Part shown: positions 49,367 through 54,970 of the stretch, in pieces
How positions within the stretch are numbered: the first letter of the stretch is position 1
Layout of the letters: every line of letters begins with the position of its first letter
Source: Lentimicrobium saccharophilum
Lineage (GTDB): Bacteria; Bacteroidota; Bacteroidia; Bacteroidales; Lentimicrobiaceae
NCBI RefSeq assembly: GCF_001192835.1
Contig: NZ_DF968182.1
Coordinates: 1,366,968-1,430,967, forward strand
DNA: 64,000 nt
Reading direction: 5' to 3'
Notes under the pieces: model-generated
What the model was told of the DNA's origin: nothing
Database searches by the model: none
What the model saw: only the letters and a program-made list of their open reading frames with translations
Made by a program: the position numbers and the translations under genes

Positions 49367-50059
49367 TCACCCATTGCGGCTGATGGTCTCCAGCATAGGA
49401 ATATTCAGCAGTTCAATCAAATCCCCTTCGGTTCTGATAAGGTTATCATCTTTGAATGTTTTCATTATCCTGATGGCACTTTCCTTGGTCATTCCCGACA
49501 TATCGGCAATATCCTGGCGCGACAGGGATGTAACGAAAGGATTGGCATTGTATATCCTCTGGGAAAGGCAAAGCAGTACATCAGCAATACGGCCGGGCAT
49601 CTGCTTATGCGTTAAGCTTGAGAGCTGGTCAAACATCCTGATCGCCTGCTCACTGATTTTATTAAGAAATGAAGAAGAAAAAGAATTATTATTCTCAATG
49701 ATCTGTTGAAACACATCGGCGCTCACCAGGCAGGCCGTCGTTTCTTCGCAGGCTATTGCCGTAAAGTGATGCCGCTTGTCGGTAAAAGCCCCGGGAACAA
49801 ATATATAGTCCACAGGTTTGGCAAAACCGATGATAATCCGCTTATCACTTTCACTCTCAAGGTAGAGTTTTACCAGCCCGGAAGTGATGCAAACAAAATC
49901 ATGGCAGGGAGATCCCTGTTTAAAAAGTATCTCGCCCTGATGATATTTTATACTGACCCGGCAACTATTAACCGAGTGCAATTCATTATCCTTCAGATTC
50001 CTGAAAATATCTGACCGCTGCAAACAAAGCGTACAATTTGCTTCAACAGAATTCGCCAT
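49367..50059 (-). CDS. Crp/Fnr-family transcriptional regulator
   Basis: 230 residues. Cyclic-nucleotide-binding-like domain at about 20-140 (YHQGEILFKQGSPCHDFVCITSGLVKLYLE) and a winged helix-turn-helix at about 160-225 (TSLSRQDIADMSGMTKESAIRIMKTF). Cysteines C9, C12, C33, C52 and C57 sit in the N-terminal half; a redox or Fe-S sensing role is possible but the spacing is not that of E. coli FNR. Divergent from the cytochrome gene cluster (210-nt gap) and so its likely regulator. Confidence 0.9.
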   Translation of the reverse strand: MANSVEANCTLCLQRSDIFRNLKDNELHSVNSCRVSIKYHQGEILFKQGSPCHDFVCITSGLVKLYLESESDKRIIIGFAKPVDYIFVPGAFTDKRHHFTAIACEETTACLVSADVFQQIIENNNSFSSSFLNKISEQAIRMFDQLSSLTHKQMPGRIADVLLCLSQRIYNANPFVTSLSRQDIADMSGMTKESAIRIMKTFKDDNLIRTEGDLIELLNIPMLETISRNG

Positions 50060-50161
50060 AAATCAATTTTAAAGTGCCCAGACTCCTATTGAAAGAAGGA
50101 GAACCATTCTTCCTGAGTTTTGAATATTCCAGATCATTATATCCGATGATATAAATCAACT

Positions 50162-50255
50162 GATTGACAAATATAAACAATAGTTTGCATACAAAAATAT
50201 CACTTTTTAATCAGCAGATCATAATTACATAAGTACTTTCTTTGATTTGTCAATC
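50162..50255. repeat. Inverted repeat pair in the regulator/cytochrome gap
   Basis: GATTGACAAAT at 50162-50172 and its exact reverse complement ATTTGTCAATC at 50245-50255, 72 nt apart. The second copy contains TTGA-N4-TCAA and lies 15 nt before the first cytochrome gene. Candidate operator pair for the divergent Crp/Fnr regulator. Confidence 0.45.
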
Positions 50256-50269
50256 TAACTGATAAAATA

Positions 50270-50653
50270 ATGAAAAAAAGGTCACTGATCAACCTGTCAA
50301 TCTTACTGCTGATACCGGCATTTTCGGCCTTCATAAGCAGCTGCGAATATGAATTTGTGGAACCTGATCGCACCCCGGTAACCACCGAGGTCAGTTTCGC
50401 AACCGACATCGTACCGATCTTCAACACCAGCTGCAATTTCTCCGGCTGTCATGCTGCCGGGGCTGTTCCGCCGGATCTGTCGCCGGCCGGCGCCTATAAC
50501 AGCCTGATCCAGCTAAACCAGATAAATACCGATAATCCATCAGGCAGTTTGCTTTATACAAGCATTACAACCGGTAGCATGAAATCGTTTTCCAATGCCG
50601 ATCAGGCCAAACTTATACTGGCCTGGATACAGCAGGGAGCAAAAAATAACTAA
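50270..50653 (+). CDS. Small lipoprotein with one CX4CH heme site
   Basis: 127 residues; lipoprotein signal ending FISSC (C25). A single heme-attachment motif CNFSGCH (C55-H61), with four residues between the cysteines instead of two, resembling the planctomycete-type cytochrome domains. The context VPIFNTSC and ILAWIQQGA is typical of c-type cytochromes of that type. First gene of the cytochrome/barrel cluster; outer-membrane or periplasmic location inferred from the lipid anchor. Confidence 0.8.
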   Translation: MKKRSLINLSILLLIPAFSAFISSCEYEFVEPDRTPVTTEVSFATDIVPIFNTSCNFSGCHAAGAVPPDLSPAGAYNSLIQLNQINTDNPSGSLLYTSITTGSMKSFSNADQAKLILAWIQQGAKNN

Positions 50654-50685
50654 TCACTGATTCATCAAGCCTTCAAAAACATACC

Positions 50686-51585
50686 ATGAAAAACAGCATC
50701 AGGATATTTACGCTGGCAGCCGTCATAATCATGCAACTCTTTACGGTTGTAATGGCACAGGAAGAGGAGACAACCGAAAAGCCGAAAGAACGTCCGGCAC
50801 GCCCGGCCTTTGAAAGCGGATTGCTTTTTGACAATGCCACTACCACCCTGCAACCTTCAAAAACGCTGGAAATGATTATCCAGCACCGGTTTGGTTCCGT
50901 TGAAAACGGAATCACCGACCTCTACGGCATATGGGCTCCTTCCAACATCAGGCTTGGATTAAACTACAGCATTCTCGATAACCTGATGGTCGGCATCGGG
51001 ACAACCAAATTCAACAAGATGCAGGACATACAGATTAAATATAATGTGTTGCAGCAAACACGGTCGAACAAGATACCTGTCACTGTTTCAGTTTATGAAG
51101 TGATTGGCATCGACGGCAGTGCCGATTCGAAATTCGGGGTAAACTACAAGTTCACCAACCGTTTCTCTTATTTTACACAGGTAATTGTTTCACGTCGTTT
51201 CAATGAAAAGATTTCTTTGCAGATAGCGCCTTCCTTTACCCATTACAACTCCACCGATTCGCTGGTGGATCACGACAGGATTGCGCTCTCTTTCGCCGGC
51301 CGCTTCAAATTTTCACCGCAGAGTTCTCTGATTGTTTCGGGCGATTTCCCGCTACAAATACAAGGGATTTCAGAGATCCGCAAGGAAATCAATGATAAGC
51401 TTGACCCTCTGAATCCGAATATCTGTATCGGGCTCGAAGTCGCCACCAGTACCCATGCATTTCACGTATATCTGGGATCCTCGCAGGGCATACTGCCTCA
51501 GGAGAATATCCTTTACAACAAAAACAATTTTTTCAAAGGAAATATCATCCTGGGACTTAATGTTACCCGTCTCTGGAATTTCTGA
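50686..51585 (+). CDS. DUF5777 outer-membrane beta-barrel protein
   Basis: 299 residues; signal peptide about 1-24 (VVMAQ), then a charged linker and a barrel of about 14 strands ending in W-N-F, the aromatic C-terminus of outer-membrane proteins. Segments LEMIIQHRFGSVENG and LGLNYSILDNLMVGIG fit DUF5777. The family has no known function. Encoded 32 nt after the CX4CH lipoprotein and before the cytochromes, which suggests it is the outer-membrane sheath of the electron-transfer complex. Confidence 0.8.
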   Translation: MKNSIRIFTLAAVIIMQLFTVVMAQEEETTEKPKERPARPAFESGLLFDNATTTLQPSKTLEMIIQHRFGSVENGITDLYGIWAPSNIRLGLNYSILDNLMVGIGTTKFNKMQDIQIKYNVLQQTRSNKIPVTVSVYEVIGIDGSADSKFGVNYKFTNRFSYFTQVIVSRRFNEKISLQIAPSFTHYNSTDSLVDHDRIALSFAGRFKFSPQSSLIVSGDFPLQIQGISEIRKEINDKLDPLNPNICIGLEVATSTHAFHVYLGSSQGILPQENILYNKNNFFKGNIILGLNVTRLWNF

Positions 51586-51626
51586 CAACATCTGACACAA
51601 TAATTAATCAACTAAAAACAAAACAA

Positions 51627-52043
51627 ATGAAAAACTCCGTAAAACTCCTCACGCTTTTTGTAGCCGTAATTGCATTTGTAGCCATAAATACAGCAATGAC
51701 CCAAAAGGAAGGCGAACCCTGGGTAATCCCGGCTAAATACAAAAGCATGAAAAGTACCATTAAGGCTGGTGACCCCTCAATTAATACCGTAGGTAAAGAG
51801 CTATACAACCAGCATTGCCGCTCATGCCACGGCACCAAAGGCCTTGGCGACGGCCCCAAAGCCCGGAACCTGAAAACAAGCACCGGTGATTTTTCATCCA
51901 AAGCTTTTCAGGATCAGGCTGATGGTGAAATCTACTACCAGTCGTTTGTTGGTCGCGACGAAATGCCGAACTTCGAAAAGAAGATTGCCGACGAAGGTGA
52001 CCGCTGGGCTGTAGTTTACTACATCCGCACCATGAAAAAGTAG
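51627..52043 (+). CDS. Periplasmic monoheme cytochrome c
   Basis: 138 residues. N-terminal signal segment about 1-25 (LLTLFVAVIAFVAINTAM), then a class I cytochrome c domain with one heme site CRSCH at about 66-70 (YNQHCRSCHGTKGLGDGPKA) and a distal methionine candidate in RDEMPNF. Likely soluble electron carrier between the inner- and outer-membrane components encoded around it. Confidence 0.88.
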   Translation: MKNSVKLLTLFVAVIAFVAINTAMTQKEGEPWVIPAKYKSMKSTIKAGDPSINTVGKELYNQHCRSCHGTKGLGDGPKARNLKTSTGDFSSKAFQDQADGEIYYQSFVGRDEMPNFEKKIADEGDRWAVVYYIRTMKK

Positions 52044-52142
52044 GATTGAATCAGGAGCCTGGGATGTTCAGCATCCCGGGCTCTGTTTGGTATAAGATAA
52101 AATCACTGGAAAATTCAGGCTTGGGTATAAAGACTTTAATTT

Positions 52143-53135
52143 ATGAAACACTGGTTACGAAAAAGGCCGGCCGGATGGGTAGCACTTACAACAGGATTTA
52201 TTCCGCTGCTCTTTGCTATATTTCTTTCCTTTGGTTCAGAAAAACCAGCAGTCACGATTGATGAGGAGAGCAAGCAATGCCTTGTTTGTCATGGTTCACA
52301 CAGGTACGAACTTACCGACACCCTTACCGGGGAAACAGTGACCATGAAGATGCACTCAGAGCTTCAGATTGACCCCGTTGAGTACAGCAAAGCCACCCAT
52401 GGTGCTTTTAAATGTACCGATTGCCATTCCATCGACTATCACATACACCCTCACCCGGTGAGCACCAAGTTTGAAGTTAATTATACCTGCATGGATTGCC
52501 ATGGCGGTGACGAAACCTATGCATCATTCAATTTCGAAACCATTGAGGAAGAATATCTTAAAAGTATTCATGCTACAGAACTCGGAAATGAATTCAGTTG
52601 CTGGAGTTGTCATAATCCCCATACATACCGTCTTTCCGACAAAGAGCCCGGTCAACTGATCAACCGGGTAGCGCGTAATAATTCTGCCTGTCTTCATTGC
52701 CACGGCGATATCAACAATTATGCAGTGCTGATTGAGAAAGAGTTGCCCGACCTGATCAAAAGTCATGACTGGCTCCCGAATCAAAGTCTGCACTTCAGGA
52801 AAGTCAGGTGCATTGATTGCCATGCCTCGAATAACGATAGCATTATGGTAGCCCATCTGGTACTTCCGGCATCGGAATCAGTGAAGAACTGCGTGGAATG
52901 CCATTCAACGAATTCCATCCTGATGGGTTCCCTCTACAAACACCAGGCTGCAGAAAAAAGGAATAAACTCGGCTTTTACAACGGCTTGATCATGAACGAA
53001 GCCTATGTAATAGGAGCTAACAGGAATTATTACCTGAATATTGCCAGTGTCGTGATTTTCATCATGGTGCTGATCGGAATTGCAATACACGCAACATTAA
53101 GGTACATACACAGGCACAGGAAACATGGCAACTAA
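52143..53135 (+). CDS. Membrane-anchored seven-heme cytochrome c
   Basis: 330 residues. N-terminal membrane/signal segment about 13-30, C-terminal membrane helix about 295-318. Seven CXXCH motifs: 46-50, 91-95, 116-120, 153-157, 183-187, 223-227 and 250-254, with additional histidines (e.g. HIHPHP) suited to bis-His ligation. It overlaps the next gene, a cytochrome b, by 11 nt, so the two probably form one inner-membrane quinol-cytochrome complex. Confidence 0.9.
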   Translation: MKHWLRKRPAGWVALTTGFIPLLFAIFLSFGSEKPAVTIDEESKQCLVCHGSHRYELTDTLTGETVTMKMHSELQIDPVEYSKATHGAFKCTDCHSIDYHIHPHPVSTKFEVNYTCMDCHGGDETYASFNFETIEEEYLKSIHATELGNEFSCWSCHNPHTYRLSDKEPGQLINRVARNNSACLHCHGDINNYAVLIEKELPDLIKSHDWLPNQSLHFRKVRCIDCHASNNDSIMVAHLVLPASESVKNCVECHSTNSILMGSLYKHQAAEKRNKLGFYNGLIMNEAYVIGANRNYYLNIASVVIFIMVLIGIAIHATLRYIHRHRKHGN

Positions 53136-53811
53136 AAAAATATACCTCTACCCATTGTGGCTCAGGATATGGCATCATGTAAATGCCGTTCTGATGCTTG
53201 CGCTTATCCTCACAGGGGTCAGCATGCAGTATTCCAACCCGGATTATCCGCTTATCAGATTTGATATTGCTGTCAGTGTGCATAACATCTCCGGGATTTT
53301 GCTCACCCTTTCATATTTCTACTTTTTCCTGGGTGTTTTATTTACTTCCATTGGCCGGCATTATGTAATGAAGCAGGGGTTTTTTAAAGCATTTTACCAG
53401 CAGGCCAGATACTATCTTTTCGGCATATTCAGGGGCGAACCGCATCCTTTCCCTGTGAACGCCGAGCGAAAGTTCAACCCCATCCAGCAGATTACTTACA
53501 ATGTGATACAACATGCCATAACCCCGGTAACCTTTGTCACAGGCTGGGCATTGTTGTATCCGGAAACAATTATTCTGAATGTTTTCGGTTACAGTGGTAT
53601 TATGCTCACCAGCCTGTTGCATGTGGCTGCAGGATTTCTGATCTCCGTTTTTCTTATAATACATCTCTATTTTATTACAGTCGGGCATTCTGTCTCCAGT
53701 AACCTGAAGAGTATGATCACGGGATATCATGAAATCCATGAAGATGAGGAAAAAGATTCTGCTGAAAACGCGGAAAAATCATCTTCTGAAAACTTAGGAA
53801 AATCAAATTAG
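53125..53811 (+). CDS. Cytochrome b (b561/PhsC-type) membrane subunit
   Basis: 228 residues with four membrane helices. Heme-ligand histidines in WLRIWHHVNAVLML (helix 1) and in the later helices HNISGIL and LLHVAAGFLISVFLIIHLYF, as in the cytochrome b561/formate dehydrogenase gamma/thiosulfate reductase family. It would oxidise or reduce quinol and pass electrons to the overlapping seven-heme cytochrome. The C-terminus is an acidic tail (EDEEKDSAENAEKSS). Confidence 0.88.
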   Translation: MATKKIYLYPLWLRIWHHVNAVLMLALILTGVSMQYSNPDYPLIRFDIAVSVHNISGILLTLSYFYFFLGVLFTSIGRHYVMKQGFFKAFYQQARYYLFGIFRGEPHPFPVNAERKFNPIQQITYNVIQHAITPVTFVTGWALLYPETIILNVFGYSGIMLTSLLHVAAGFLISVFLIIHLYFITVGHSVSSNLKSMITGYHEIHEDEEKDSAENAEKSSSENLGKSN

Positions 53812-53862
53812 TTACACACAATCACACAAACAAACGAAAAACAAACACTAAAACTGAAGAAA

Positions 53863-54912
53863 ATGAAACGACAAATTTCCTTACTCACCTTAGCGACCAG
53901 TGCATTTTTGGTGCTGTGTTTTGTCTCGTTCAGCAGCTGTACTAAGACAGGGCCCGAGGGGCCTCCGGGGAAGGATGGCGAAGACGGGCTGAATGCAGAT
54001 GCTTCATGCGTTACATGCCATGATTTTTCTGATGACCTTTTGACCAAAGTCCATCAGTTTGCCAATTCAGCCCACGGTAGCGGAGCCAATGTAGACCGGA
54101 GCATTGAGGGTTGTGCACAATGCCATACCAGTCAGGGCTTCAGGCTCATGGTAGATAGTGGTATGATCGCAGCCGTAGCGTCACCGGCAATCATCAACTG
54201 CCGTACCTGCCATAAAATCCATGAAACATACACACCTGCTGATTATGCGCTCAGGGGCAGCGGAGCCATTGCTATGGTAATGGGTGGACCTTCCGCCGAA
54301 TATAATTATGGCACATCCAATGTTTGCGCCAATTGTCATCAGGGACGCACAGTAACTCCATACCCTGTGGCAGGCGGTGATCCAGTATCCGTCACCAATA
54401 AAAGATATGGTCCGCATTACGGCCCCCAGGCCAACATGTTTATCGGCAAAGGCGGCTATGAAATTGATGGCCCGATGCCTTATTCAAATTCACCACATAC
54501 GCTGGCAGTAACCAATGGCTGCGTAACCTGCCATATGGATGGAAACCCGGTAGGTTTACAGGCCGGAGGGCATCAGATGAATATCACCTATAACGAAACA
54601 TCCAAACTGCTTACCGGTTGTACCGTTTCAGGCTGCCATACGGATGCAGCAGTGGTTAAATCCATGTTTGACGAAAACAGGGCTGAAATAGCCGCCCTTG
54701 AACTGGAGCTTGAAACTGCGCTCAAAGATCAGGGCCTTCTGGATGCAGAAGGATATGTAGCGGTTCCGGCTACACTCACACAGGATCAGCTGGGAATTAT
54801 ACTGAACCTTAAACTGGTTCATTACGACCATAGCTATGGTGCCCATAATTACCGCTACACCAAAGCTTTGCTTGTAAATTCACTCGCTGCTTTAGCCAAA
54901 TCAAGCGTTTAA
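53863..54912 (+). CDS. Six-heme lipoprotein cytochrome with collagen-like linker
   Basis: 349 residues. Lipoprotein signal ending FSSC (C26), then a short collagen-like Gly-X-Y linker GPEGPPGKDGEDG (30-42). Six heme sites: five CXXCH at 49-53, 84-88, 113-117, 155-159 and 220-224, plus one CX4CH (CTVSGCH, 253-259). A lipid anchor after a flexible spacer and six hemes fit an outer-membrane, possibly surface-exposed, terminal cytochrome. Last gene of the cluster. Confidence 0.88.
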   Translation: MKRQISLLTLATSAFLVLCFVSFSSCTKTGPEGPPGKDGEDGLNADASCVTCHDFSDDLLTKVHQFANSAHGSGANVDRSIEGCAQCHTSQGFRLMVDSGMIAAVASPAIINCRTCHKIHETYTPADYALRGSGAIAMVMGGPSAEYNYGTSNVCANCHQGRTVTPYPVAGGDPVSVTNKRYGPHYGPQANMFIGKGGYEIDGPMPYSNSPHTLAVTNGCVTCHMDGNPVGLQAGGHQMNITYNETSKLLTGCTVSGCHTDAAVVKSMFDENRAEIAALELELETALKDQGLLDAEGYVAVPATLTQDQLGIILNLKLVHYDHSYGAHNYRYTKALLVNSLAALAKSSV

Positions 54913-54932
54913 CAGGAATTAAGATTTTCAGT

Positions 54933-54970
54933 AAAATCCCGCTGTGCCTTTGCATGGCGGGATTTTTTTT
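54933..54970 (+). terminator. Terminator of the cytochrome operon
   Basis: Perfect 10-bp stem AAAATCCCGC / GCGGGATTTT (54933-54942, 54957-54966) followed by a T-run. 20 nt after the stop codon. Confidence 0.9.

Follow-up and report, generated by a model that had tools for sequence, protein, structure and literature searches.

A DUF5777 barrel operon in Lentimicrobium saccharophilum as a putative surface electron-export chain with exchangeable quinone modules

How could electrons from the quinone pool reach the outer surface of a Bacteroidota cell if the barrel at hand is too narrow to hold a multiheme cytochrome? This question is raised by an operon of Lentimicrobium saccharophilum (assembly GCF_001192835.1, contig NZ_DF968182.1), located at positions 49367-54970 of a stretch of 64,000 nt, here called the window, of a 4.5 Mb genome. 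A first-pass annotation had described six co-oriented genes with a divergent Crp/Fnr regulator and a closing terminator, and had read them as a route from quinol to the outer membrane around a DUF5777 barrel filled by a multiheme partner. Open reading frames (ORFs, called by a simple longest-ORF rule), Pfam matches and heme motifs confirmed all seven genes and their positions. We consider an extracellular (outer-surface) electron-transfer chain the best reading of this set, with a probability of about 0.6. The features are the following.

49367..50059, minus strand: Crp/Fnr-family regulator, divergent from the operon (PF00027, E=2.4e-17; PF13545, E=1.2e-13)
50270..50653, plus strand: monoheme c-type lipoprotein with a CX4CH motif (CNFSGCH at residue 55) and lipid Cys25
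50686..51585, plus strand: DUF5777 outer-membrane beta barrel, predicted 12 strands (PF19089, E=1.8e-72)
51627..52043, plus strand: soluble monoheme cytochrome c, His/Met, predicted periplasmic shuttle (PF00034, E=3.4e-11)
52054..52084, plus strand: strong intercistronic hairpin (14-pair stem) between the outer-membrane part and the quinone module
52143..53135, plus strand: membrane-anchored heptaheme cytochrome c of CbcA-like make-up (7 CXXCH; hydrophobic segments 13-31 and 297-315)
53125..53811, plus strand: cytochrome b, predicted diheme quinol oxidase subunit, PhsC/CbcB-like (PF01292, E=5.5e-22)
53863..54912, plus strand: six-heme lipoprotein of the OcwA/NrfA superfamily (5 CXXCH and 1 CX4CH), lipid Cys26 followed by a collagen-like Gly-X-Y stalk
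54933..54966, plus strand: terminator-like hairpin (15-pair stem) followed by a T run

This gene set is not due to chance, since lipoprotein, barrel, heptaheme protein, cytochrome b and six-heme lipoprotein are present in 13/13 window-type loci, taken from 13 other genomes with a whole or near-whole DUF5777 match. Gene order is as in the window in 12 of the 13, L041 lacking the central monoheme gene, and the six-heme protein has a longer form of about 445 residues in 7 of these 12. The thirteenth locus (L036), which stops before the regulator, is rearranged, with two six-heme and two monoheme genes ahead of the heptaheme gene. A DUF5777 match was found in 17 of 19 genomes of the window's family, its own included, and the window protein is 98% identical to its counterpart in Bacteroidales bacterium UBA5833, while the identity with Lentimicrobium sp. 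ACE_NR_BACT3 is 95%.

The central protein belongs clearly to DUF5777 (244 bits against a cut-off of 23.1) and is, by prediction, an outer-membrane beta barrel: its AlphaFold2 model (41 sequences) has 12 strands, with a predicted local distance difference test score (pLDDT) of 86.8 and a predicted template modelling score of 0.78. Searched with Foldseek, this model matched OmpG, the COG4313 channel (4rl8), FapF and NanC first and the larger OmpC and FadL lower, at template modelling scores (TM-scores) to the query that are moderate, about 0.4-0.5, while a sequence search of the PDB found no DUF5777 relative. The remark of the first-pass annotation that this barrel family is not known for electron conduits holds for the literature collection searched, in which no paper contains the name DUF5777.

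The most likely heme partner of the barrel is the monoheme lipoprotein, which lies at most two genes from DUF5777-B in 76/78 loci. These and the following counts describe DUF5777-B; they come from the best 80 of 494 relatives found by scanning named genomes, picked by similarity to the window query and not at random, some of them clipped by contig ends, with the DUF5777 ORF recovered in 78 (none in L125 and L156) and with labels such as 'EB_dh' or 'mono' assigned by BLAST (E 1e-5) against few reference proteins. Cultured Bacteroidota carrying the locus include Muriicola jejuensis, Robiginitalea sediminis and Carboxylicivirga marina. Among the 78 lipoprotein genes directly upstream of DUF5777 (76 loci), 43 carry CXXCH and 35 CX4CH, the two motifs interchanging at one alignment column, and in the six-heme family 33/59 members have six CXXCH and 26/59 five CXXCH and one CX4CH, which renders the CX4CH motifs credible heme sites. 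The lipid Cys is invariant in both lipoproteins of the set. Among relatives of the monoheme lipoprotein (n=27), PSCyt1 is matched by 3 and CBB3 by 4; the window member matches neither and reaches 43.7 bits with NF047812 (LIC11213 lipoprotein), below the cut-off of 100. Among solved structures, FoxE is the best match of the monoheme lipoprotein (E=2.4e-6). The Met expected as axial ligand lies in GSMKSF in the window member; four Flavobacteriaceae lipoproteins (L138, L149, L152, L163), read by eye, have an N-x-HP type motif instead, a possible switch of ligand and potential. The soluble monoheme cytochrome c, found in 62/78 loci, conserves its motif His68 and Met113 in 74/74 sequences.

The six-heme family also occurs in other surroundings, which bear on how lipoprotein and barrel act. 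Above 200 bits it was found at 22 places in 17 of the 392 genomes sampled from the phylum; in the other 53 of the 70 genomes with a match, the scores were about 180 bits or less and the ORFs mostly much longer, and these were set aside. Three of the 22 places have DUF5777, nine a fused monoheme protein with a Rieske protein, eight a porin-cytochrome-like cluster, and at the remaining two the gene stands alone. The fused monoheme protein (394-431 residues) has a single CXXCH behind its signal peptide and matched no Pfam family in 4/4 members tested; it is presumed from its sequence to be a barrel, and is followed by a Rieske protein recognised by PF00355 in L171, L172, L175 and L176 and by BLAST relatives in L177, L179 and L187. 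In the former four loci there are also a monoheme cytochrome c, a protein with 13 hemes that is related to the heptaheme one, and a cytochrome b, which in three of them is fused to an ImcH-like part. We tried the fused protein as a DUF5777 homologue and rejected this (hhalign probability 2.6%, with only 4 sequences on one side). It holds the place of the monoheme lipoprotein and DUF5777, suggesting that this pair functions as a single unit of heme and barrel. We read the core of the operon as a two-piece, Cyc2-like monoheme/barrel unit. In the porin-cytochrome-like clusters, a presumed barrel of 423-458 residues (no Pfam match in 3/3 tested) is accompanied by a cytochrome with 12-14 hemes and a lipoprotein with 7-9.

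The six-heme lipoprotein itself is likely the terminal surface cytochrome. At least four consecutive Gly-X-Y triplets follow its lipid Cys in 59/59 homologues, while 11 of 1214 other ORFs of the same loci contain at least four triplets and none contains five; a collagen-like stalk on a multiheme cytochrome looks unreported, as 'collagen-like' is absent among the literature matches listed. In a profile search 6i5b (OcwA) was found at E=6e-15, 6qvm at 8e-15, NrfA at 5e-12 and octaheme nitrite reductase at 7e-8. With the AlphaFold2 model (pLDDT 82.1), Foldseek gave OcwA as best match (E=3e-5, query TM-score 0.52), followed by the undecaheme S-layer cytochrome of Carboxydothermus (E=3.6e-3) and NrfA chains, so that sequence and fold agree on the OcwA/NrfA multiheme superfamily. 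An MtrC-type identity, suggested by a weak PF22113 match, was given up, the PDB profile and fold searches pointing to OcwA/NrfA. According to the excerpts from which we cite here and below, 6I5B is OcwA, a terminal reductase of the cell surface with a weak activity on nitrite and a reaction with hydroxylamine (PMC6703420), and we infer from the PDB title that 6qvm is OmhA, the Carboxydothermus surface cytochrome described in PMC7829351. In 60/60 six-heme sequences the six His of the heme motifs are conserved without exception, as are exactly six further His, and CXXCK, the motif of the NrfA catalytic heme, was sought in the homologues and found in 0/59, setting them apart from NrfA.

At the inner membrane, the heptaheme protein shows the same pattern, with 7 motif His, 7 other His and additionally His316 in the second hydrophobic segment invariant in 41/41 sequences. 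A conserved candidate for the second His ligand thus exists for each heme of both multiheme proteins and no open catalytic heme is predicted, from which the hemes would be bis-His and both proteins wires rather than substrate sites. In cytochrome b, His17, 53, 166, 180 and 202 are invariant in 39/39. The two genes overlap by 11 bases and combine PF01292 with seven CXXCH, a b-type cytochrome gene adjoining a multiheme c gene as in CbcBA-type modules. The NCBIfam search of the window proteins gave no match to a Cbc model, and cytochrome b matched PRK15006 (thiosulfate reductase cytochrome b) at E=1e-41, below the cut-off of that model. Among PDB entries the best relative of the heptaheme protein was 28pb, a cytochrome c (E=1.2e-6), and this lead was dropped. 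CbcBA of Geobacter corresponds to GSU0593/GSU0594 and has seven hemes. Its genes are described as encoding a putative c- and b-type inner-membrane cytochrome (PMC6148476) and as required for extracellular respiration at certain potentials (PMC12133095). ImcH, a further module of this kind, is described as a three-helix protein with seven hemes, in which a NapC/NirT-like part and an atypical motif, CX3CH, are found (PMC6295460). A protein of 499 residues adjoins the operon in four Lentimicrobium genomes (L039, L041, L042, L045), and the one member analysed, that of L045, with 3 hydrophobic segments, PF03264 (NapC/NirT, E=3.3e-10), 6 CXXCH and 1 CX3CH, agrees with every point of this description and would by that comparison be ImcH-like.

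Such modules are interchangeable. At least one quinone module is present in 68/78 DUF5777-B loci, namely heptaheme protein with cytochrome b in 39, a 4Fe-4S protein with NrfD in 37, both in 8, and an ImcH-like protein in 13, and the six-heme lipoprotein is found in 57/78. With the core conserved and the modules differing, the outer-membrane part is kept while the inner-membrane module is swapped. The heptaheme module occurs in 0/25 of those loci, among the 80, titled Flavobacteriaceae or its assumed genera, Cyclobacteriaceae, Chryseolinea, Flammeovirgaceae, Chitinophaga or Sphingobacteriaceae, a count made from locus titles in which the placement of some genera in Flavobacteriaceae is ours. 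An EB_dh-like lipoprotein was labelled in 7/78 loci, probably too low a count, and neither this nor the six-heme lipoprotein was recognised in 16/78. PF09459, checked in four loci, was found in L073, L078 and L084 and fell just under the cut-off in L143. EB_dh-domain lipoproteins with CX3CH stand upstream of the monoheme lipoprotein and DUF5777 in L073, L077, L078, L083 and L084, of which only L073 has the six-heme lipoprotein. Beside the operon of a further locus (L117:13213-20904) lie a cytochrome c assembly/ResB protein (PF01578, PF05140), a lipoprotein labelled EB_dh-like by BLAST, and a cytochrome with 19 hemes. A nos-operon reading of genes downstream in Flavobacteriaceae was rejected, the 408-residue protein of L152 being glutamyl-tRNA reductase (PF05201).

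Whether DUF5777 as a family is linked to electron transfer has a mixed answer. PF19089 is present in 162 of the 392 phylum genomes, and 40 loci (L048-L087), hand-picked from the listed top matches and spread over families, were surveyed, the DUF5777 ORF being recovered in 39 (none in L065). The first-pass annotation would have fallen if DUF5777 normally lacked cytochrome neighbours: a small heme-lipoprotein relative lies at most three genes away in 33/39 loci, and a quinone module is found in only 6/39. The remaining 6/39 loci have no heme-motif ORF within three genes, and overall heme-motif ORFs are enriched near DUF5777 (near 53/233, far 8/273; Fisher p = 2e-12). YceI is nearby in 27/39 loci, together with a small heme lipoprotein in 22/39. 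In a tree (MAFFT, gap-trimmed, FastTree) of 137 entries, 124 of them distinct because the genus loci were entered twice, all 89 quinone-linked entries and 13 others fall into one clade with support 1.0; this clade is the best-scoring among all splits, and the set over-represents the window type, since 80 loci came from the search with the window query. YceI is close by in 25 of the 35 remaining entries. Beyond the electron-linked clade, DUF5777 in its common form is often accompanied by YceI and one or two small heme lipoproteins, which implies a redox or lipid-linked outer-membrane function. A second, different DUF5777 exists in the window's own genome at C1:1576921 (region C1:1575672-1578480; L031:5673-8481), where two heme lipoproteins precede it and a rhomboid protein (PF01694) follows.

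A Crp/Fnr homologue lies at most seven genes away in 41/78 DUF5777-B loci. In the NrfD-type loci L132 and L144, a phosphonate-binding-type periplasmic protein (PF12974, checked in L132), a sensor kinase and a response regulator (both read by eye) stand upstream in place of Crp/Fnr, hinting at a sensed substrate; the same arrangement is seen in L124 and L129 by gene lengths only. In the window, the stretch that separates the monoheme c gene from the heptaheme gene has a folding energy of -30.3 kcal/mol (z -2.80 relative to shuffled sequences, a control made for the window gap only), and a strong hairpin (< -20 kcal/mol) is found in 11/13 corresponding gaps (L088-L100). The window sequence of this hairpin is common to L088 and L089, and those of the other loci look unrelated. 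It may be a partial terminator or an RNA-processing site giving the operon halves different levels. The annotated closing terminator was found as the hairpin at 54933-54966, identified by stem strength and position, as a scan of the window gave 8 terminator-like sites against 8.0 expected.

We propose a chain in which menaquinol would be oxidised at the inner membrane by the pair of cytochrome b and heptaheme protein, as their make-up suggests, and the soluble His/Met monoheme cytochrome c would take up the electrons and cross the periplasm. At the outer membrane, the monoheme lipoprotein, acting as a unit with the 12-strand DUF5777 barrel, would receive them, and the six-heme lipoprotein, held off the membrane by its collagen-like stalk, would hand them on outside the cell, for instance to ferric iron, humics, an electrode or a partner cell. 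The annotated quinol-to-outer-membrane route thereby gains support from the modular quinone oxidoreductases, the surface-reductase-like six-heme lipoprotein and the conserved second His per heme, although the multiheme partner inside the barrel has to be abandoned, given 12 predicted strands and a set without a soluble periplasmic multiheme cytochrome of MtrA type. Beyond the window, a minimal conduit may exist across Bacteroidota, in which the 12-strand barrel and a separate monoheme lipoprotein would replace the multiheme-filled barrel and feed the stalked six-heme cytochrome, with a swappable quinone module; for this generalisation, the odds seem to us somewhat short of even.

Several observations weigh against the proposed chain. 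Textbook geometry puts the backbone radius of a 12-strand barrel at about 11 Å, much less than MtrA-like cytochromes would need, so that the barrel as modelled cannot sheath a multiheme cytochrome, and tunnelling across the membrane by way of a lone heme is unlikely. With a narrow barrel and a single heme, the crossing step would require the barrel to admit a small mediator through its pore or to serve as an anchor or exporter, or the geometry is one we do not foresee. No six-heme lipoprotein was recognised in 21/78 loci and no quinone module in 10/78, and in the wider family 33 of the 39 sampled DUF5777 genes lack a quinone module, so the basic function of the family may be something else. 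DUF5777-B also occurs in loci titled Flavobacteriaceae, Cyclobacteriaceae and Chitinophaga, many members of which are aerobic and not expected to respire metals. Finally, the OcwA/NrfA superfamily also contains enzymes acting on nitrite, hydroxylamine and sulfite.

This last point leads to a periplasmic respiratory or detoxifying reductase, in which the six-heme lipoprotein would reduce a soluble nitrogen or sulfur compound entering through DUF5777 as a solute porin. The superfamily matches to NrfA and octaheme nitrite reductase agree with it, as do the likeness of the barrel to small-solute channels in Foldseek, the suitability of a 12-strand pore for small solutes, and the slow reduction of nitrite by OcwA itself (PMC6703420). 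We nevertheless hold such a reductase to be rather unlikely, because CXXCK is missing from all homologues while every heme has a candidate distal His, the two best relatives are surface cytochromes, the protein carries a collagen-like stalk, and it recurs in the porin-cytochrome-like clusters of other phylum members. The barrel could also be an assembly or export factor for heme lipoproteins, with electrons crossing by another route. The secretion pore FapF among the Foldseek matches and the nearness of heme lipoproteins, both in DUF5777-B (76/78) and in the wider family (33/39), fit this role, but the fused monoheme protein, a presumed barrel in the same place elsewhere, favours a joint heme-plus-barrel unit, and we regard the role as unlikely though deserving of attention.

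We think an inward flow quite unlikely, in which electrons given off outside the cell by reduced iron, sulfur or a partner cell would enter the quinone pool, with the modules acting as quinone reductases. Being strictly fermentative, Lentimicrobium requires a sink for electrons and not a donor. Modules of the CbcL/MtrH/MtoC type are known from iron reducers and oxidisers alike (PMC6295460), the monoheme barrel Cyc2 is an iron oxidase (PMC8406198), and FoxE is the best solved match of the monoheme lipoprotein, all of which would suit an inward direction, but for ImcH-type modules, present in 13/78 loci, quinol oxidation is the only role linked to them so far (PMC6295460).

If the proposed export chain works, it would give lineages across Bacteroidota, Lentimicrobium included, a way of exporting electrons that can be put to the test, and how electrons get across a membrane with a 12-strand barrel and one heme becomes a pointed question of biophysics. 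Should the minimal conduit exist, the same exit would be used by anaerobes with cytochrome b and heptaheme protein and by Flavobacteriaceae-type lineages with 4Fe-4S protein and NrfD. Searches for microbes that export electrons depend on barrels already known. A survey of electron export employed MtrB, OmbB, ExtB/ExtE and ExtI models and required at least 14 membrane strands (PMC7399161), and a 12-strand DUF5777 barrel would presumably be passed over by it. Among the matches listed in targeted searches of the literature collection, no title or abstract opening describes this gene set; Lentimicrobium is mentioned there in papers on bioelectrochemical reactors.

Compared with known systems, the elements of porin-cytochrome conduits are an outer-membrane barrel, an outer-membrane redox lipoprotein and a periplasmic multiheme cytochrome held by the barrel (PMC6148476), the last of which has no counterpart here, the set comprising only monoheme proteins and a membrane-anchored heptaheme protein besides the six-heme lipoprotein. 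MtrCAB, OmcB and Ext of Geobacter share with the operon a barrel gene beside heme lipoproteins or cytochromes, fed by inner-membrane quinol oxidases; here, in contrast, the barrel has 12 predicted strands and DUF5777 as sole Pfam match, and a monoheme lipoprotein stands in for the adjacent soluble multiheme filler. MtrB has 26 strands and Cyc2 a predicted 16, and the single heme of the latter would plug only the periplasmic mouth (PMC8406198). With Cyc2, a fused cytochrome-porin, the operon has one heme per barrel in common, but lipoprotein and barrel are separate proteins, the modelled 12 strands would make the unit narrower and set it apart from Cyc2 proper, and the set adds a stalked six-heme lipoprotein and a quinol oxidase where Cyc2 is an iron oxidase. 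OcwA of Thermincola and the Carboxydothermus S-layer cytochrome, the solved proteins closest to the six-heme one in sequence and in fold, are both located at the cell surface, but have nine or eleven hemes instead of six, whereas here a lipoprotein with a collagen-like stalk, and with no open heme predicted, is found in a Gram-negative host. To CbcBA and CbcL of Geobacter the pair of cytochrome b and multiheme c is alike by make-up only, and to ImcH the three-helix NapC/NirT cytochrome with 6 CXXCH and CX3CH of the relatives, or their fusion of cytochrome b with an ImcH-like part, is similar; unlike in Geobacter, these modules are linked to DUF5777. A Zoogloea cluster combines MtrB, a decaheme, and b-type and seven-heme cytochromes, and an uncharacterised anode cluster of Bacteroidetes_1, with one barrel and six multiheme cytochromes, has been proposed for electron export (PMC8258643); compared by description only, the latter is nearer to the porin-cytochrome-like clusters of the phylum than to the window operon. 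The operon looks like a surface electron-export design that differs from the textbook conduits.

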